NCBI RefSeq assembly: GCF_029027405.1
Contig: NZ_CP093396.1
Coordinates: 1,612,001-1,676,000 of the forward strand
Direction: 5' to 3'
Origin: Sulfurimonas sp.
Lineage (GTDB): Bacteria; Campylobacterota; Campylobacteria; Campylobacterales; Sulfurimonadaceae
Length of the DNA stretch: 64,000 bases
Made by a program: the position numbers and the translations under genes. This document shows positions 21,172-27,582 of the stretch, one piece after another (within the stretch, counting starts at the first letter, position 1; each line of letters starts with the position of its first letter). Below the pieces are notes generated by a model. The model saw nothing but the letters and a program-made list of their open reading frames with translations, was not told the origin of the DNA and did no database searches.

Positions 21172-21543
21172 CTAGACTAGCTCAAAGGCAACTGCTAAAA
21201 CACTCAGCCAAATAAGGGAAGTTACTATAAGACTTAAAAGAACCATAGTTGCACCTACATCTTTTGCTTGTTTTGCAAGTATGTGGTAATCCGTAGTAAC
21301 CAAATCAACAACTCTCTCTATCGCAGAGTTTGCCACTTCTGCTAAAACAGGAATAAAAAGAGATAAAAAAAGTATGCTTGAATGTGAAAAACTAATAGGA
21401 AGATTCCAAGCCACTATGCCCATAACAAAAAGCATAAGAAGTTGCCATTTAAAAGATGTTTCATTTTTTACAATATCTATAAAACCCTCCAGAGCATATC
21501 CACCATTACGAAATAGTGAGTGTTTCGGTTTATTTAGTTTCAT
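21172..21543 (-). CDS. dgkA: diacylglycerol kinase
   Basis: A 123-residue three-helix membrane kinase that phosphorylates diacylglycerol to phosphatidate for reuse in phospholipid synthesis. The family motif EVANSAIERVVDLV is present (about 64-77), as is the amphipathic N-terminus NGGYALEGFIDIVKNETSFKW. Its ATG lies inside the last codons of the LplT-PlsC gene (14-base overlap), and the patatin gene follows 7 bases after it. Confidence 0.96.
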   Translation of the reverse strand: MKLNKPKHSLFRNGGYALEGFIDIVKNETSFKWQLLMLFVMGIVAWNLPISFSHSSILFLSLFIPVLAEVANSAIERVVDLVTTDYHILAKQAKDVGATMVLLSLIVTSLIWLSVLAVAFELV

Positions 21544-23371
21544 ATCTATCCTTTAGTTCTTGAATTATACTCTTTAAGTCATCGGCTTTTGTATCGTTTG
21601 GTATAGGTGGAGCAAAATAAACAGTTATTTCTCGTCTTTTAAAAAAACTTTTTTTATTTTTATTTTTATATTTTGAAAAGGAGCTTCCAAATACCCCATC
21701 TATAAAGTAAGGGACTATAACTCCTTTGTAATCACTTGAAATAAGCTCGTAGCCTCTATAAAATTTTCCTAATTTTCCATCTATACTAATTTCACCTTCT
21801 GGAAATATTCCTACTACTTTTGCATCTAAAAGTCGTTTATATGCTTCCTTAAAAGCATCTTTAGAAGCCTTAGGGGATACTGGGATAGCTTCACCTTTTT
21901 TAAAAAATGCATGAAAAAATTTCCAGTGGTATATATCTTTATCCATTAAAAAATTAATACGCCGACTAAGAGGAAGCTGAACAATAACCCAATCTAGCCA
22001 ACTCACATGATTTCCTAAGAGAAGTACAGCACCTTTAGATGGTATATTTTGTAAACCAACATAAGTATATGAATGTCTAAAACTAGAAATCAACTCCATA
22101 AAAGCCCAAAAAGTCATAACAATATATCTTTTTAAAAGTAAAAAACTAAGCATAAGTCCAACAATTGCCATTGCATAAATGAGGATTCCACCACTAATGG
22201 AATGATAAGCAAAAATAGTTGTTAAAACTAAAAATGAAAACATAAAAATATTTTGTATAAAATTATTTCCAGCTAAGATAGTTCCAAGATGTACTCGAGG
22301 AGATAAAAACTGAATTTGTGCATTTAAAGGTACCATCAAAAAACCACTAAAAATCCCAAAAAGCATAAAAATTATTCCTAACTGAGTTAAAGAAGTTGAA
22401 GTTGGGATGAAAAAAACGACTAAGGTTAAACCAACAGCACCAAGAGCAGATAAGCCTGTATTTATAAAGTACTTTGAAAATTTTGCCGCCATTATAGAGC
22501 CTATAACTATACCTATTCCAGCTAGTGCCATCACACCTTGAACAAAAATAGTATTTGTAACTCCTAGTTTACTCTTTGCATATTCTCCAAAGACTGCTAG
22601 AACAACTTGAGATATAGACCAAAAAAGACTAAGAGCAAGTATAGCTTCAAAAATTTCTTTTTTTCTTTTTATAATTTTCATATTTTTATGCAGATAAGCA
22701 CCTGTTAAATAACGCTTAACATTAAAACTTTTTTTACTACTTTCTATCATTTTATTTGGAAGTTTAGATGCTAAGAACCACTCAACAATAGAACCTATAA
22801 CTAAAAGCCAACCAAGTGGAGCAACTATTTTTAATATATCTTCTTTTGTTTGGAAGCTATCACCAAGCATTCCCTCAAACAAAACTGTATAGAAAATAAT
22901 TCCACCTAAAATAGCAACAGTTGTAACTGCTTGAATCGCTCCATTTCCTGCACTAATAAACTTTATGCCAACTAACTCCTTTATATAGCCATATTTTGCT
23001 GGCCCATAAATAGCACTTTGAAAAGCAATCATAAAAGTCATACCAAAAGCAGTATAAAAATGTCCATGATAGTAAGAATATGTTATCCCTAAAGTAATAA
23101 AAATGGCAAAAATAGAAGAATACTCCATAATTTTATTTTTAGGAAATCTATCTGCTAAGAAACCAGAAGGAGAGAAAATCAAGATAAAAGGTAAAAGAAT
23201 CAGAGCATTTACAATGGCAGTTAAAACTATAAGTGTATCGCCATCATATATTTTAAATATAGTATTTTGTATGATTATCTTATGACCTAAGTCTGTAAAA
23301 GCATTTAAAAATATAACTATTAAATAGTTAATTAGCCCTACGATACCAAAAAGAGTATCTTTTTTTTGCAT
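21530..23371 (-). CDS. LplT-like MFS transporter fused to a PlsC acyltransferase
   Basis: 613 residues. The first 400 form a 12-helix MFS transporter resembling the lysophospholipid flippase LplT. From about 420 on there is a PlsC-type acyltransferase: NHVSWLD (the HX4D motif), later EGEI in FPEGEISIDGKLG, and GVIVPYFIDG. Unlike E. coli Aas there is no acyl-ACP synthetase domain. The likely job is to flip lysophospholipid inward and re-acylate it. The neighbouring phospholipase and DgkA support a repair or remodelling pathway. Its ATG follows the upstream stop directly (TAGATG). Confidence 0.9.
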   Translation of the reverse strand: MQKKDTLFGIVGLINYLIVIFLNAFTDLGHKIIIQNTIFKIYDGDTLIVLTAIVNALILLPFILIFSPSGFLADRFPKNKIMEYSSIFAIFITLGITYSYYHGHFYTAFGMTFMIAFQSAIYGPAKYGYIKELVGIKFISAGNGAIQAVTTVAILGGIIFYTVLFEGMLGDSFQTKEDILKIVAPLGWLLVIGSIVEWFLASKLPNKMIESSKKSFNVKRYLTGAYLHKNMKIIKRKKEIFEAILALSLFWSISQVVLAVFGEYAKSKLGVTNTIFVQGVMALAGIGIVIGSIMAAKFSKYFINTGLSALGAVGLTLVVFFIPTSTSLTQLGIIFMLFGIFSGFLMVPLNAQIQFLSPRVHLGTILAGNNFIQNIFMFSFLVLTTIFAYHSISGGILIYAMAIVGLMLSFLLLKRYIVMTFWAFMELISSFRHSYTYVGLQNIPSKGAVLLLGNHVSWLDWVIVQLPLSRRINFLMDKDIYHWKFFHAFFKKGEAIPVSPKASKDAFKEAYKRLLDAKVVGIFPEGEISIDGKLGKFYRGYELISSDYKGVIVPYFIDGVFGSSFSKYKNKNKKSFFKRREITVYFAPPIPNDTKADDLKSIIQELKDRYETK

Positions 23372-24127
23372 CTATTCTTCGTCCTTGTTTATTAATAGCG
23401 TACTCCAGCCTTCATAATAACCATTATCTATTTTTACTTTTTCAAATAGTGTATTAACTACTTTTTGCACTTCTTTCTCTGTAACATTATGATTTTTTAC
23501 AAGAGCTACACCATGCTCAAAATCTTCAGTACTAATTTCATCTTTAAAACTAAAACCTTCTAAATCTAAAGTATTTACAAATCTATTTTTCCCAGTTGGA
23601 GTTTCAAAAGAAACATAATGCTCAACATCTCTTGGTATAGTCAAATCTTCGCCTTCTTCAGCAAGCAAAAAAATAATTTTTGCACTTTGGATATGACATA
23701 GTTCAAGTTCTGTAGGCTCTAGCTGTAACTCATAAAAGTCCCACTTTGTATCTCTTACGATATTGCTTTCATATATATATTCCGATGGTACTAAAATATT
23801 TTTTACAATTACATCTATCCTTTTTGAATCATAAGAATAAAAATAAAACTCACTCCAACCATCAACAAGCCTACTTCCTACATAAACAGCTCTTTGATTA
23901 TGTTCTAGTGCAATAATTAAAGCTTCTTTAGTCTCTAAAAACTCTTCATAAGACTCTTCATTTGCTTCCATAGTATCACTTTTTATAAACACACTAAGTA
24001 ACCAAGGGTTCATTTCTTTTGACTCTAAAGCTTCCAAGTTTACTTCTATATTTATCTCATCTATTTTTTCTAGGCAATCTTTGCTATAGCTTGCTTCACT
24101 CTGTAATCTAGTAAATATCTCTCTCAT
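23372..24127 (-). CDS. DUF695 plus RraB-like domain protein
   Basis: 251 residues, no signal or membrane helix, very acidic. The first about 135 residues resemble DUF695 (WLLSVFIKSD, then ALEHNQRAVYVGSRLVDGWSEFYFYS). The rest resembles RraB, a regulator of RNase E in enterobacteria (VEHYVSFETPTGKNRFVNTLDLEGF, then YYEGWSTLLI). RNase E itself is generally absent from this phylum, so the RraB-like part may have another target. It is the first gene of the lipid operon and divergent from the FMN-binding gene. Confidence 0.75.
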   Translation of the reverse strand: MREIFTRLQSEASYSKDCLEKIDEINIEVNLEALESKEMNPWLLSVFIKSDTMEANEESYEEFLETKEALIIALEHNQRAVYVGSRLVDGWSEFYFYSYDSKRIDVIVKNILVPSEYIYESNIVRDTKWDFYELQLEPTELELCHIQSAKIIFLLAEEGEDLTIPRDVEHYVSFETPTGKNRFVNTLDLEGFSFKDEISTEDFEHGVALVKNHNVTEKEVQKVVNTLFEKVKIDNGYYEGWSTLLINKDEE

Positions 24128-24248
24128 TAATTCTCTTATTTTTTATTTATTATATCAAATTTATGATTAAGCCTTAAATCTTGATAATGAAGATTGACAA
24201 AACATATATAATAATATACAATCTTCTAAATTTAACAAAAGAATTTTG

Positions 24249-24773
24249 ATGAAAAAAACACTATTAACTCTACTTATAATTTTAGTACTTCCATTAAGTG
24301 CTAAAATTCTCATATCACCCATAGATGCAATGAAGCAAAGCTTTGGAGCTAGTGCAAAAATAGTTAAAAAAAACATAGTTCTTAAAAATAAAGAAGTAAA
24401 AATCATTCAAAAGACATCAAAAGTAAAACTAAAAACTAAAATTTTCAGAACTTATAAAGCCAGTAAAAATGGGAAAAATTTAGGTTATGGTATTCTAATA
24501 AATAAAAAAGTTCGTTCTAAAAATGGTGTAATTCTTTATATAATTTCAAAAAATAATATTTTAAAAAGTATAGAAATAATTGCCTTTAATGAACCACATG
24601 AATATATACCTTCTAAGAAGTGGATTTCTCAATTTAAAGATATTAAAACAGATGAACAACTTCGTGTAGGAAGACAAATTCCAACTATTACAGGGGCCAC
24701 AATGAGTGCCAGAAGCATCACCGATGGCTCAAGAGTTGCTTTTGCTATATACCATGAGTTGTTGAAAAAGTGA
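24249..24773 (+). CDS. exported FMN-binding domain protein
   Basis: 174 residues from ATG 24249 (a TTG just upstream is also possible). There is a signal peptide (KKTLLTLLIILVLPLSAK). The FMN-binding domain carries the flavinylation motif TITGATMSARS, with the FMN-accepting Thr at 151. ApbE links FMN to this Thr through a phosphodiester bond in NqrC, RnfG and related exported proteins. An apbE gene lies 900 bases downstream on the other strand. The following two genes encode membrane proteins translated with coupling (GTGA overlap), so a periplasmic flavin electron carrier docking on them is likely. Confidence 0.88.
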   Translation: MKKTLLTLLIILVLPLSAKILISPIDAMKQSFGASAKIVKKNIVLKNKEVKIIQKTSKVKLKTKIFRTYKASKNGKNLGYGILINKKVRSKNGVILYIISKNNILKSIEIIAFNEPHEYIPSKKWISQFKDIKTDEQLRVGRQIPTITGATMSARSITDGSRVAFAIYHELLKK

Positions 24774-25243
24774 AATTTACCCTTATAAAAAGTATCCAAA
24801 AAGATAAGGCTATGAGCCTTATCTTAAAAGGATTTTTAAGTTTTATACTACTCTTTCTAATTTCTGATATTTTAGTTAAATACTTTAGTTTTGGAATAAC
24901 CCCAGATGCTATATATATAACACTATTTGGAAATGAAGAAGAGTTCATAGACCCCATAACAAAAAGTTATTTTCTAGAGTTTTGGCATACTGAAATATTT
25001 TTTATCATGATGAATTTACTAACTCTAAGTGCTATATTTATTCGTCTTTCAAACAAAAGTAAAATAGCTATGACAAATATTCTTATGATAAGTGCAATTA
25101 TCTCACTTATTTCACTTCCTATGTCCTTTTTCATTTCATCAGACTTTGTATATATATATCTTTTAACATTTTTCATCTGGCATCTAAGTGCTATATATAT
25201 GATACTTTATTCATTTTGGAAGTTAAATGACAAAAGCATATAA
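24770..25243 (+). CDS. four-helix membrane protein, flavin cluster (paralogue A)
   Basis: 157 residues, GTG start overlapping the FMN-binding gene stop. Four predicted helices (about 16-38, 73-92, 98-121, 125-149) are seen, with a periplasm-or-loop segment holding GNEEEF (54-59). His73 at the head of helix 2 and His138 in helix 4 could be heme or quinone-site ligands. It aligns with the next gene over the GNE motif, helix 2 and helix 3, so the two are tandem paralogues. I know no named family for it. Confidence 0.75.
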   Translation: MKFTLIKSIQKDKAMSLILKGFLSFILLFLISDILVKYFSFGITPDAIYITLFGNEEEFIDPITKSYFLEFWHTEIFFIMMNLLTLSAIFIRLSNKSKIAMTNILMISAIISLISLPMSFFISSDFVYIYLLTFFIWHLSAIYMILYSFWKLNDKSI

Positions 25244-25676
25244 ACTTTCTATACTTTATTATTTAGCTTTTTCTATACTCCTTATTTTGAGTGCTTATAT
25301 GCTTTTTGAGCATAAAATTGGTTTTAGTTATCAGGGCGTTGTTGAGTACTATACAGGTAATGAAGACAAATTTATAATAGCAAAAAGTTTTAGTGGAATT
25401 TTAAAAATAGTCTTACCGCATATCTTTGTCTTTGGACTTTTATCTATGGTTTTGCTTCATTTTTTAGTTTTTACAAAACTTAGATATAAAAAAAGCACTC
25501 TTGTACTTATTTATCTAACCTTTTTCACTGCATTTACAGAGATTTTTTCTCCATTTTTAATCATTAGCGGTTTAGAGTTTTTTGCCTACTTGAAGCTTTT
25601 ATCTTTTTTTGTCTTTAGTGCTTTAATTTTATATATATCATGGTTACTTCTTAAGAGCATAATCAGAGATATTTGA
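25227..25676 (+). CDS. four-helix membrane protein, flavin cluster (paralogue B)
   Basis: 149 residues with four predicted helices (about 7-27, 57-82, 91-113, 120-146) and the same GNE segment (GNEDKF, 44-49). Helix 2 holds His65 and His78. It overlaps paralogue A by 17 bases, so it belongs to the same operon. Its 3' end overlaps that of the convergent apbE by 33 bases. Function is unknown; context suggests the membrane partner of a flavinylated periplasmic protein. Confidence 0.75.
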   Translation: MTKAYKLSILYYLAFSILLILSAYMLFEHKIGFSYQGVVEYYTGNEDKFIIAKSFSGILKIVLPHIFVFGLLSMVLLHFLVFTKLRYKKSTLVLIYLTFFTAFTEIFSPFLIISGLEFFAYLKLLSFFVFSALILYISWLLLKSIIRDI

Positions 25677-26563
25677 GCTAACTTTTAACTTCCCATCACT
25701 TTGTAAAATAACATAAGCCAATTCTAGGGAGTCTAAAAACTCATAAGCCTTTTTCATTGGCATTACACTTGAAGCAGTAGTATAAGCATCTAAAGCACTA
25801 CTACTTAGCTCCGAAATCAAAGTGATTGACACAAATATCGTTTGTGATTTTTTTGTCTTAGGATTGATTAAATGATTGTTAGCTTTTGATTTTACAAATC
25901 TTACATAATTTCCACTGGTACTTATACCTAAATCTTTTTTTGTAGTTATAAATGAAGCCAAAGCACCATCACCAAATGGATTTCGAATATCAAAAGTACA
26001 AACATCTAAACACCGAATATCTCCACTCGCAGAGATTGTGGCTTCTACACTATTTGCTCTAAAATAAGCTGCTGCTTTGTCAACTCCAAAGCCTTTGCCC
26101 ATTCCTCCAAGGTCTACTTTTATGCTTTTGCCCAACTTTGCTTCATCTTTTGTGAAATAAACTTCATCAAAATCAATTCTTGCCTCTTTAAGCTCATCCC
26201 TAGATGCAACTCTATCATCTTCACCAAAATGGTATAAATCCTTAGTAATCGAGCCAATACTAATGTTAAAGTAAGAATCTGTATCTTTATAAAACTTTTT
26301 ACTTTGCACAAAAGCTTCATAAGTATAGTTATTTATCTTCGATTTTTTATCTCGGTTTAATCTATATATGGGGGAGTTTTTATTATAAGAGGAGAGCGAA
26401 AAATCTATATCTTTAAATATTTTAAATCCATGTTCAATGAAATCTTTATCTTTTTGTTGGACAGAAATTGTAATAAAAGTTGACATTATAACTTGAGTTC
26501 GAGAGAAAGTTTGAGCCTTTAAAACAAGACTCAAAAGTAGAAAAAAAGTTAATTTATATATTT
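25644..26563 (-). CDS. apbE: FAD:protein FMN transferase
   Basis: An ApbE-family enzyme that transfers FMN from FAD to Ser/Thr in exported flavoproteins. Landmarks are SSYNKNSPIYRLN, YFNISIGSITKDLYHFG, the core VDLGGMGKGFGVDKAAAYF, SASGDIR and the HLINPKTKKS metal-loop region. Start choice is unusual. The first in-frame TTG (26534) gives a truncated signal, whereas an ATA codon at 26561-26563 yields an ideal leader (YKLTFFLLLSLVLKAQ). The ATA also has AGAG seven bases before it and overlaps the ribBA end; an in-frame stop lies directly upstream. A conservative annotation would use 26534. Confidence 0.88.
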
Positions 26564-27582
26564 ATAATCTCTTTAACTTCTAATCCAAAACCACCAAGCC
26601 CTACAAAAGAAGTTTGCTTTATAGATGTTATAAGATTCATTTTTGATACACCTAAAGTTTGTAAAATCTGAGCTCCTGTTCCTATCTCTTTTATAGCTGC
26701 ATTATCTTGGTGATTTGTCTTATTTATAAAAACTAATACACCACTATTTTGCTTTAAATACTCTATGGAATTTATAAGGTTGTTGTATTTTTTTTGATTT
26801 AAAAGAAGTTCTATATCTGGAATAACATTGTGAACCCTAACATTTGCAACTTCACCAGCACTATAAAATACAATTGCAGTATGTTTTATGCCGTCATGAT
26901 CTTCAAAAGTATGCTCATTAACTTTTACACCAAAAAAATCTATCTCTTTGACCTCTATTTCATTTACAAGTCTTTCATTCGCTAAACGATACTCAACGAT
27001 ATCAGATATAAAAACAGTTTTTAGGCCATGCTCTTTTGCAAAAATATCTAAATCATCTCGTCTTGCCATGCTTCCATCTTCTTTAATGATTTCACAAATA
27101 ACACCTGCCTCGCTAAGACCTGCTAAACGACATATATCAACGGAACCTTCTGTATGACCTGTTCTAACTAGCGTTCCACCATCTTTTGCTATTAAAGGAA
27201 AAATATGCCCTGGTTTAACAAGTTCTGTTTCATGAGAGATAGGATTTGCTAAGATTTTTATAGTATCATCTCTCTCCCCTGCTGATATACCAGTAAGAGC
27301 ATCTTTAGCATCTACTGAAACCGTAAATGCTGTTTCATAAGAAGATGTGTTTGAGTTGACCATAGGATTTAAATCTAATCTTGTTGCAATCTGCTTACTA
27401 AGTGCCACACAAATTAAACCACGAGCGTGAGTTGCCATAAAGTTTACATTCTCTGGAGTAGAAAATGCGGCGGCATAAACTAAATCACCCTCATTTTCTC
27501 TATCTTCATCATCACACATAATAATCATGCGACCCTTTTTAATCTCTTGGATAGCTTCTAATACTCTTTGTGTAGGTGTCAT
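26554..27582 (-). CDS. ribBA: 3,4-dihydroxy-2-butanone 4-phosphate synthase with degenerate GTP cyclohydrolase II domain
   Basis: 342 residues. The RibB half is complete: MCDDEDRENEGDLVYAA at the substrate site, ATHARGLICVAL, and HIFPLIAKDGGTLVRTGHTEGSVDICRLAG. The second half has the RibA fold in outline but lacks the zinc-binding cysteines and the RxHSEC region; the segment reads VANVRVHNVIPDIELLL. So only RibB activity is expected, as described for other members of this phylum, and a separate RibA should exist elsewhere. It is followed by apbE on the same strand. Confidence 0.93.
   Translation of the reverse strand: MTPTQRVLEAIQEIKKGRMIIMCDDEDRENEGDLVYAAAFSTPENVNFMATHARGLICVALSKQIATRLDLNPMVNSNTSSYETAFTVSVDAKDALTGISAGERDDTIKILANPISHETELVKPGHIFPLIAKDGGTLVRTGHTEGSVDICRLAGLSEAGVICEIIKEDGSMARRDDLDIFAKEHGLKTVFISDIVEYRLANERLVNEIEVKEIDFFGVKVNEHTFEDHDGIKHTAIVFYSAGEVANVRVHNVIPDIELLLNQKKYNNLINSIEYLKQNSGVLVFINKTNHQDNAAIKEIGTGAQILQTLGVSKMNLITSIKQTSFVGLGGFGLEVKEIINI

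Follow-up and report, generated by a model that had tools for sequence, protein, structure and literature searches.

Surveys of flavinylation report many ApbE systems without a characterised membrane electron partner (PMC8238504, PMC11334425). The closest working analogue of the module analysed here is the PepSY-like/DUF2271 system, in which an extracytosolic carrier flavinylated by ApbE is likewise combined with a small membrane protein; such clusters are reported to be Fur-repressed in Shewanella and Caulobacter, and iron reduction has been proposed for them (PMC8238504). The module also resembles the DUF4405/FezC proteins, small membrane proteins with conserved histidines which are found near apbE or in iron organelles (PMC11334425). 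FezC has been modelled as a homodimer (PMC11334425), whereas our module has two different subunits, for which haem is only predicted. Like the Rnf and Nqr complexes, the module has an RnfG-like carrier, whose TGAT site is of the type found in RnfG and NqrC.

The window, by which we mean the whole analysed stretch of 64,000 nucleotides, comes from a Sulfurimonas sp. genome consisting of one contig of 2.83 Mb. It contains the following features:

24128 to 24248, no strand: intergenic stretch, at the position of the porin gene and the Fur box in relatives
24249 to 24773, plus strand: carrier, start codon ATG at 24249; FMN_bind protein with an RnfG-like C-terminal domain and a predicted FMN-threonine, T151, in TGATMS
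24770 to 25243, plus strand: mem1, start codon GTG; four-helix inner-membrane protein with H73 and H138
25227 to 25676, plus strand: mem2; four-helix inner-membrane protein, paralogous to mem1, with H65 and H78 in helix 2
25644 to 26534, minus strand: apbE, FAD:protein FMN transferase (PF02424, E 1e-45)
26554 to 27582, minus strand: ribBA, riboflavin biosynthesis (PRK09314, E 2.5e-155; Pfam, E 1.6e-80)

The initial annotation had described an exported carrier with a TGATMS site whose gene overlaps two tandem four-helix membrane genes, faced by ApbE and then RibBA. The coordinates, the overlaps and the helices predicted by AlphaFold bear out this layout: the stop codon of the carrier and the start codon of mem1 overlap by 4 bp (GTGA), mem1 and mem2 by 17 bp, and apbE is convergent with mem2 and overlaps it by 33 bp, with ribBA following on the minus strand. 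The view that this is not an Rnf or Nqr complex also holds, as no other Rnf or Nqr subunit is present in the operon, where the neighbouring ORFs are rraB-like, mem1, mem2, apbE and ribBA; in addition the membrane partners are unrelated to those of Rnf and Nqr. The rraB-like gene (23372-24127, minus strand) codes for a DUF695 and RraB (regulator of ribonuclease activity B) protein and lies at the edge of the module in many loci of the Sulfurimonas type. Further away, a 613-aa protein (21530-23371, minus strand) has, judged by eye, the appearance of a transporter-acyltransferase fusion and lies beside a diacylglycerol-kinase-like gene.

The carrier begins with what by eye is a Sec-type signal peptide. 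The window protein matches Pfam FMN_bind with an E value of 0.0015, which is under the curated cut-off, and falls far under the cut-off of the NCBIfam RnfG models. Its family is clearer, as FMN_bind (PF04205) is matched at E<=0.01 in 36 of 36 aligned members and a profile of the carrier relatives matches the RnfG chain 9eri_G in the PDB (E 4e-9). These profile matches make the carrier a divergent member of FMN_bind with a relationship to RnfG. The residues G149, A150 and T151 are kept in all 35 carrier sequences compared, and the motif together with the family makes it very likely that ApbE attaches FMN to Thr151. A PF04205 search of the window genome gave no match although the carrier is present there; thus surveys that depend on Pfam alone may miss this carrier.

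Searches with mem1 and mem2 against Pfam and NCBIfam returned no known family, just as the two proteins had gone unrecognised before. In Pfam, the window mem1 has no family and none is common to the 76 mem1 sequences, the window mem2 has only a chance-level match to DUF2973 (E 0.37), and no family covers mem2 across its 73 members. NCBIfam likewise has no family for the two window proteins or for the 76 mem1 and 73 mem2 members. A Pfam match to cytochrome b561 in 1 of the 73 mem2 members (E 6e-4) was not used. No DUF4405 or MsrQ-type Pfam match occurs among the 76 and 73 members, and PepSY TM (PF03929/PF16357) and DUF2271 are not matched at E<=0.1 by any of them or by the window carrier. Since no PepSY domain was found, the module stands outside the PepSY-like family, from which it differs in having an FMN_bind carrier, two four-helix paralogues without PepSY as the membrane part, and a porin as outer-membrane partner in place of the TonB receptor reported there (PMC8238504). 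A sequence search of the PDB yielded nothing for mem2 and chance-level matches only for mem1, and a plasmid search with mem2 gave no match. Certain proteins of beta- and gammaproteobacteria may resemble mem2, which is a lead only.

The relationship of mem1 and mem2 as paralogues, which had been noted before, is supported by profile alignment with hhalign (E 5.5e-9 for 15 against 14 sequences and E 3.1e-14 for 76 against 73). AlphaFold predicts for each of them four long helices and a short one lying between the first two of these, with a mean pLDDT of 94.7 for mem2 and 90.7 for mem1. Charge counts place the loop between helices 2 and 3 inside in both proteins and the loop between helices 1 and 2 outside, clearly in mem1 and less clearly in mem2. 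With Foldseek no PDB match better than E 1.7 (mem2) and 5.7 (mem1) was found. The best VIA matches, a designed protein for mem2 (Z 8.0, 130 aligned, 3.6 A) and the TLNRD1 helix bundle for mem1 (Z 10.2, 114 aligned, 2.8 A), have Z values of a size described as usual among helical bundles and were rejected, none being distinct. Haem A synthase and cytochrome b also came up for mem2, but too weakly to be used (Z 5.0, 127 aligned, 3.6 A, and Z 4.3, 128 aligned, 5.0 A, respectively).

H65 and H78 of mem2, thirteen residues apart, are kept in 73 of 73 members and are the sole invariant columns of this protein. In mem1, H73 is invariant (76/76) and H138 is present in 71 of 76 members; in the profile alignment H73 comes to lie two residues from H65. 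From these conserved histidines we infer a haem-b pair, and we consider the chance that mem1 and mem2 do bind haem b to be a little better than even. One haem would be situated near the outer side with H73 and H65 as its probable ligands, and H78, alone or together with H138, would hold a second one. The case for the second haem is weakened because H138 is lost in five mem1 members, among them both members from other phyla.

The order of these genes is not confined to one genome, as the initial annotation had left possible. Among 40 relatives and the window genome (n=41), mem1 is found in 17, mem2 in 15 and the carrier in 15. Among 298 genomes of the phylum the carrier and mem1 are each present in 23, and these are the identical genomes. 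Co-occurrence with ApbE, which had been proposed as a check, is seen here too: ApbE is present in 31 of the 298 genomes, namely all 23 with the module and 8 of the 275 others (Fisher 6e-28). A carrier scan of named genomes turned up 125 relatives, and the analysis used the 80 best loci among them. They come from Sulfurimonas, Sulfuricurvum, Sulfurovum and Hydrogenimonas, and outside the Campylobacterota there are single divergent members in one Aquificota MAG (Hydrogenothermaceae, L210) and one Nitrospinae MAG (L212). Considering those of the best 80 loci which have room for the respective gene, mem1 is the gene after the carrier in 75 of 77, mem2 is next in order in 72 of 74, and apbE is convergent in 56 of 71 and found anywhere in the locus in 60 of 71; these per-locus counts are not independent since the loci are related and the samples overlap, two of the 80 coming from one MAG (L176, L179) and others being shared with the other genome samples used. 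As the gene order is kept across many genomes, the arrangement is not due to chance, and we regard the conservation of the module as practically certain.

Two loci lack mem1 (L179, L203) and have lone carriers beside an imelysin cluster. In these loci (carrier at 7001-7528 in L179 and at 6971-7519 in L203) the cluster alongside is of the imelysin/DHOR/porin/cytochrome peroxidase kind, and in L203 the carrier seems to be the final gene of this cluster's operon. An MntP gene is found in 9 of the best 80 loci; this manganese-efflux-type gene lies between mem2 and apbE in L140, L146, L152-L155, L164 and L167.

The constant company of the carrier would also fit a function of mem1 and mem2 other than redox chemistry, namely the export of FAD or flavin to the periplasm for the supply of ApbE. 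ApbE requires FAD outside the membrane, and mem1 and mem2 are nearly always found beside a protein that requires FMN. In some gene clusters flavin transporters are found near ApbE (PMC11334425). On the other hand, eight genomes of the phylum have ApbE but no mem1, and the invariant residues are intramembrane histidines, as in flavinylation-associated cytochromes. A pair of exporters would moreover leave the carrier without a local membrane electron partner. We consider flavin export improbable and electron transfer through the mem1-mem2 pair, which we predict, to be likely with good confidence.

Within the window genome apbE is single-copy. Its frame is open upstream of the TTG at 26534 to about 26561 with no ATG, GTG or TTG start, and on the minus strand of 26534-26561 it reads signal-like and opens after a stop codon with ATA. 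In a relative (L050), apbE starts with TTG at the position of this ATA. Thus the window ApbE has a visible signal-like core with no canonical start before it. RibBA had been counted as a member of the module, and it does adjoin in the window. Nevertheless, ribBA lies near the module in only 33 of the best 80 loci, all of them Sulfurimonas-like, and in none of L177-L210, contigs possibly ending early in both counts. RibBA is weak evidence because it is nearby only in Sulfurimonas-like loci and is an ordinary riboflavin gene; it is a neighbour in these loci and stands outside the conserved module.

In most relatives the first gene of the operon codes for a porin, which the window does not have. 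In 55 of 71 loci with room (from the best 80) a porin gene lies on the same strand just upstream of the carrier, and several loci have it in the interval that separates the carrier from the divergent rraB-like gene; of the other 16, eleven have a lower-scoring porin in the locus and five have none. The proteins match Porin_O_P or Gram-negative porin models. A search of eight genomes with the porin profile was positive in five (G005, G216, G009, G206, G229) and gave none in the window genome (G000), G024 and G017, the latter being 68% complete.

The porin promoters were compared with the Fur operator consensus of E. coli, and at least 14 of 19 matches were called a Fur box. By this consensus a Fur box precedes the porin in 46 of 51 loci, whereas the other genes of these loci have one in 15 of 478 promoters, the loci being phylogenetically related and so not independent events; the 51 are those with the porin just upstream on the same strand, a score >450 and >250 bases before the porin. 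Three loci outside the 51 (L136, L204, L212) have no Fur box at the porin promoter, and L182, excluded because its contig ends there, has one. In the carrier-first operons of L171, L179 and L202, near an imelysin cluster, the box lies before the carrier. Instead of Fur itself, one of its paralogues in the FUR family could occupy this site. A Fur-family gene adjoins mem2 in L212 (Nitrospinae).

In the window the best site, at 24177, has 12 of 19 matches and a PWM score of 6.4 (9.5-21 for the 46 sites), which is at chance level, and a Fur box was rejected here; G024, which also lacks the porin, has none either (best PWM 5.9). The window copy is thus atypical, being without porin, Fur box and canonical start for the ApbE signal peptide, and may be a reduced or decaying variant. 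What we say on regulation rests on the relatives and on operators recognised by sequence.

Further iron-related genes are found near the module. Imelysin, DHOR or FA-hydroxylase genes adjoin it in 8-9 of the best 80 loci, belonging to clusters of imelysin, DHOR, second imelysin, FA hydroxylase, porin and CCP/MauG genes. They are akin to the Fur-regulated iron operons of the imelysin/EfeB type, such as PA4370-4373 of P. aeruginosa, reported to be Fur-regulated (PMC3143127), and have a related porin, whereas they form a separate gene cluster without mem1 and mem2. The core module contains no iron transporter; the window genome encodes FeoB and five FUR-family proteins.

A porin close to a flavin carrier also calls to mind a dissimilatory conduit for extracellular electron transfer, in which porin, multihaem cytochrome and flavin serve respiration on minerals. 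In fact some loci combine the porin with a five-CxxCH cytochrome that weakly matches MtrC/OmcA-type models. But this cytochrome is nearby in only 9 of the best 80 loci, the porin is a weak match of the Porin_O_P type with MtrB/PioB under the cut-off in one of three scanned, and a Fur box would be expected for assimilation and not for iron respiration. We regard such a conduit as highly improbable.

Somewhat less improbable, though still unlikely, is that the module is Fur-controlled and carries out another reductase reaction or a respiratory bypass at low iron, where flavin replaces iron-rich carriers and the porin admits another acceptor. Fur control shows only that the module is expressed at low iron, the same cytochrome in nine loci would suit a bypass, and elsewhere cytochrome and flavin modules are reported to be interchangeable (PMC8238504). 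Yet the adjoining imelysin/di-haem operon is of a type implicated in iron uptake, the conserved histidines suggest that the membrane pair itself needs haem, which would save little iron, and the loci have no dedicated terminal reductase in common.

With a flavin carrier outside the inner membrane, membrane partners and, in most relatives, a porin under an iron switch, the module is probably a route of iron reduction for uptake. An iron role as such we consider likely, and for the more specific reading as a Fur-controlled, assimilatory ferric-reducing flavinylation module we estimate a probability of about 0.6. This iron link goes beyond the initial annotation, which had suggested a self-contained flavin-based electron path. 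The flavin path through unrecognised membrane proteins is well supported, but its being self-contained is not supported, as most relatives have a porin under a Fur-type operator, some loci add a cytochrome, and a quinol or another donor would always be needed.

We suggest that ApbE, as its family and the motif indicate, would place FMN on Thr151 of the exported carrier. The mem1-mem2 heterodimer in the inner membrane, with one or two b-type haems held by its conserved histidines, would draw electrons from a donor in the membrane, (mena)quinol or another one, and pass them to the FMN carrier, and the carrier would reduce periplasmic Fe(III) directly or via the cytochrome of some loci. The Fe(II) produced could be taken up by FeoB. 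In most relatives the porin of the same operon would admit the ferric substrate or chelate across the outer membrane, and Fur, to judge from the putative operator, would repress the operon at ample iron. The window copy would then be a variant that lacks the porin and shows no Fur box.

More tentatively, and at slightly less than even odds, we propose that mem1 and mem2 are the two subunits of an undescribed haem-b quinol:FMN-carrier oxidoreductase which together with the porin makes up a Fur-controlled route of ferric reduction serving iron uptake, distributed among the Campylobacterota (Sulfurimonas, Sulfuricurvum, Sulfurovum, Hydrogenimonas) and also occurring in Aquificota and Nitrospinae. 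We found no description of the module in the open-licence literature searched, and the word 'porin' does not appear in the main text of the flavinylation surveys (PMC8238504, PMC11334425). If the proposal is true, the module would add one more class of flavinylation apparatus to DUF4405 and the ten of the 2021 list. It offers a testable candidate for the membrane electron partner of ApbE systems, a pair with four marked histidines, and the promoters of the relatives suggest its function. For bacteria that oxidise sulfur and hydrogen and are abundant at vents and in sediments, it would constitute a route of iron acquisition.
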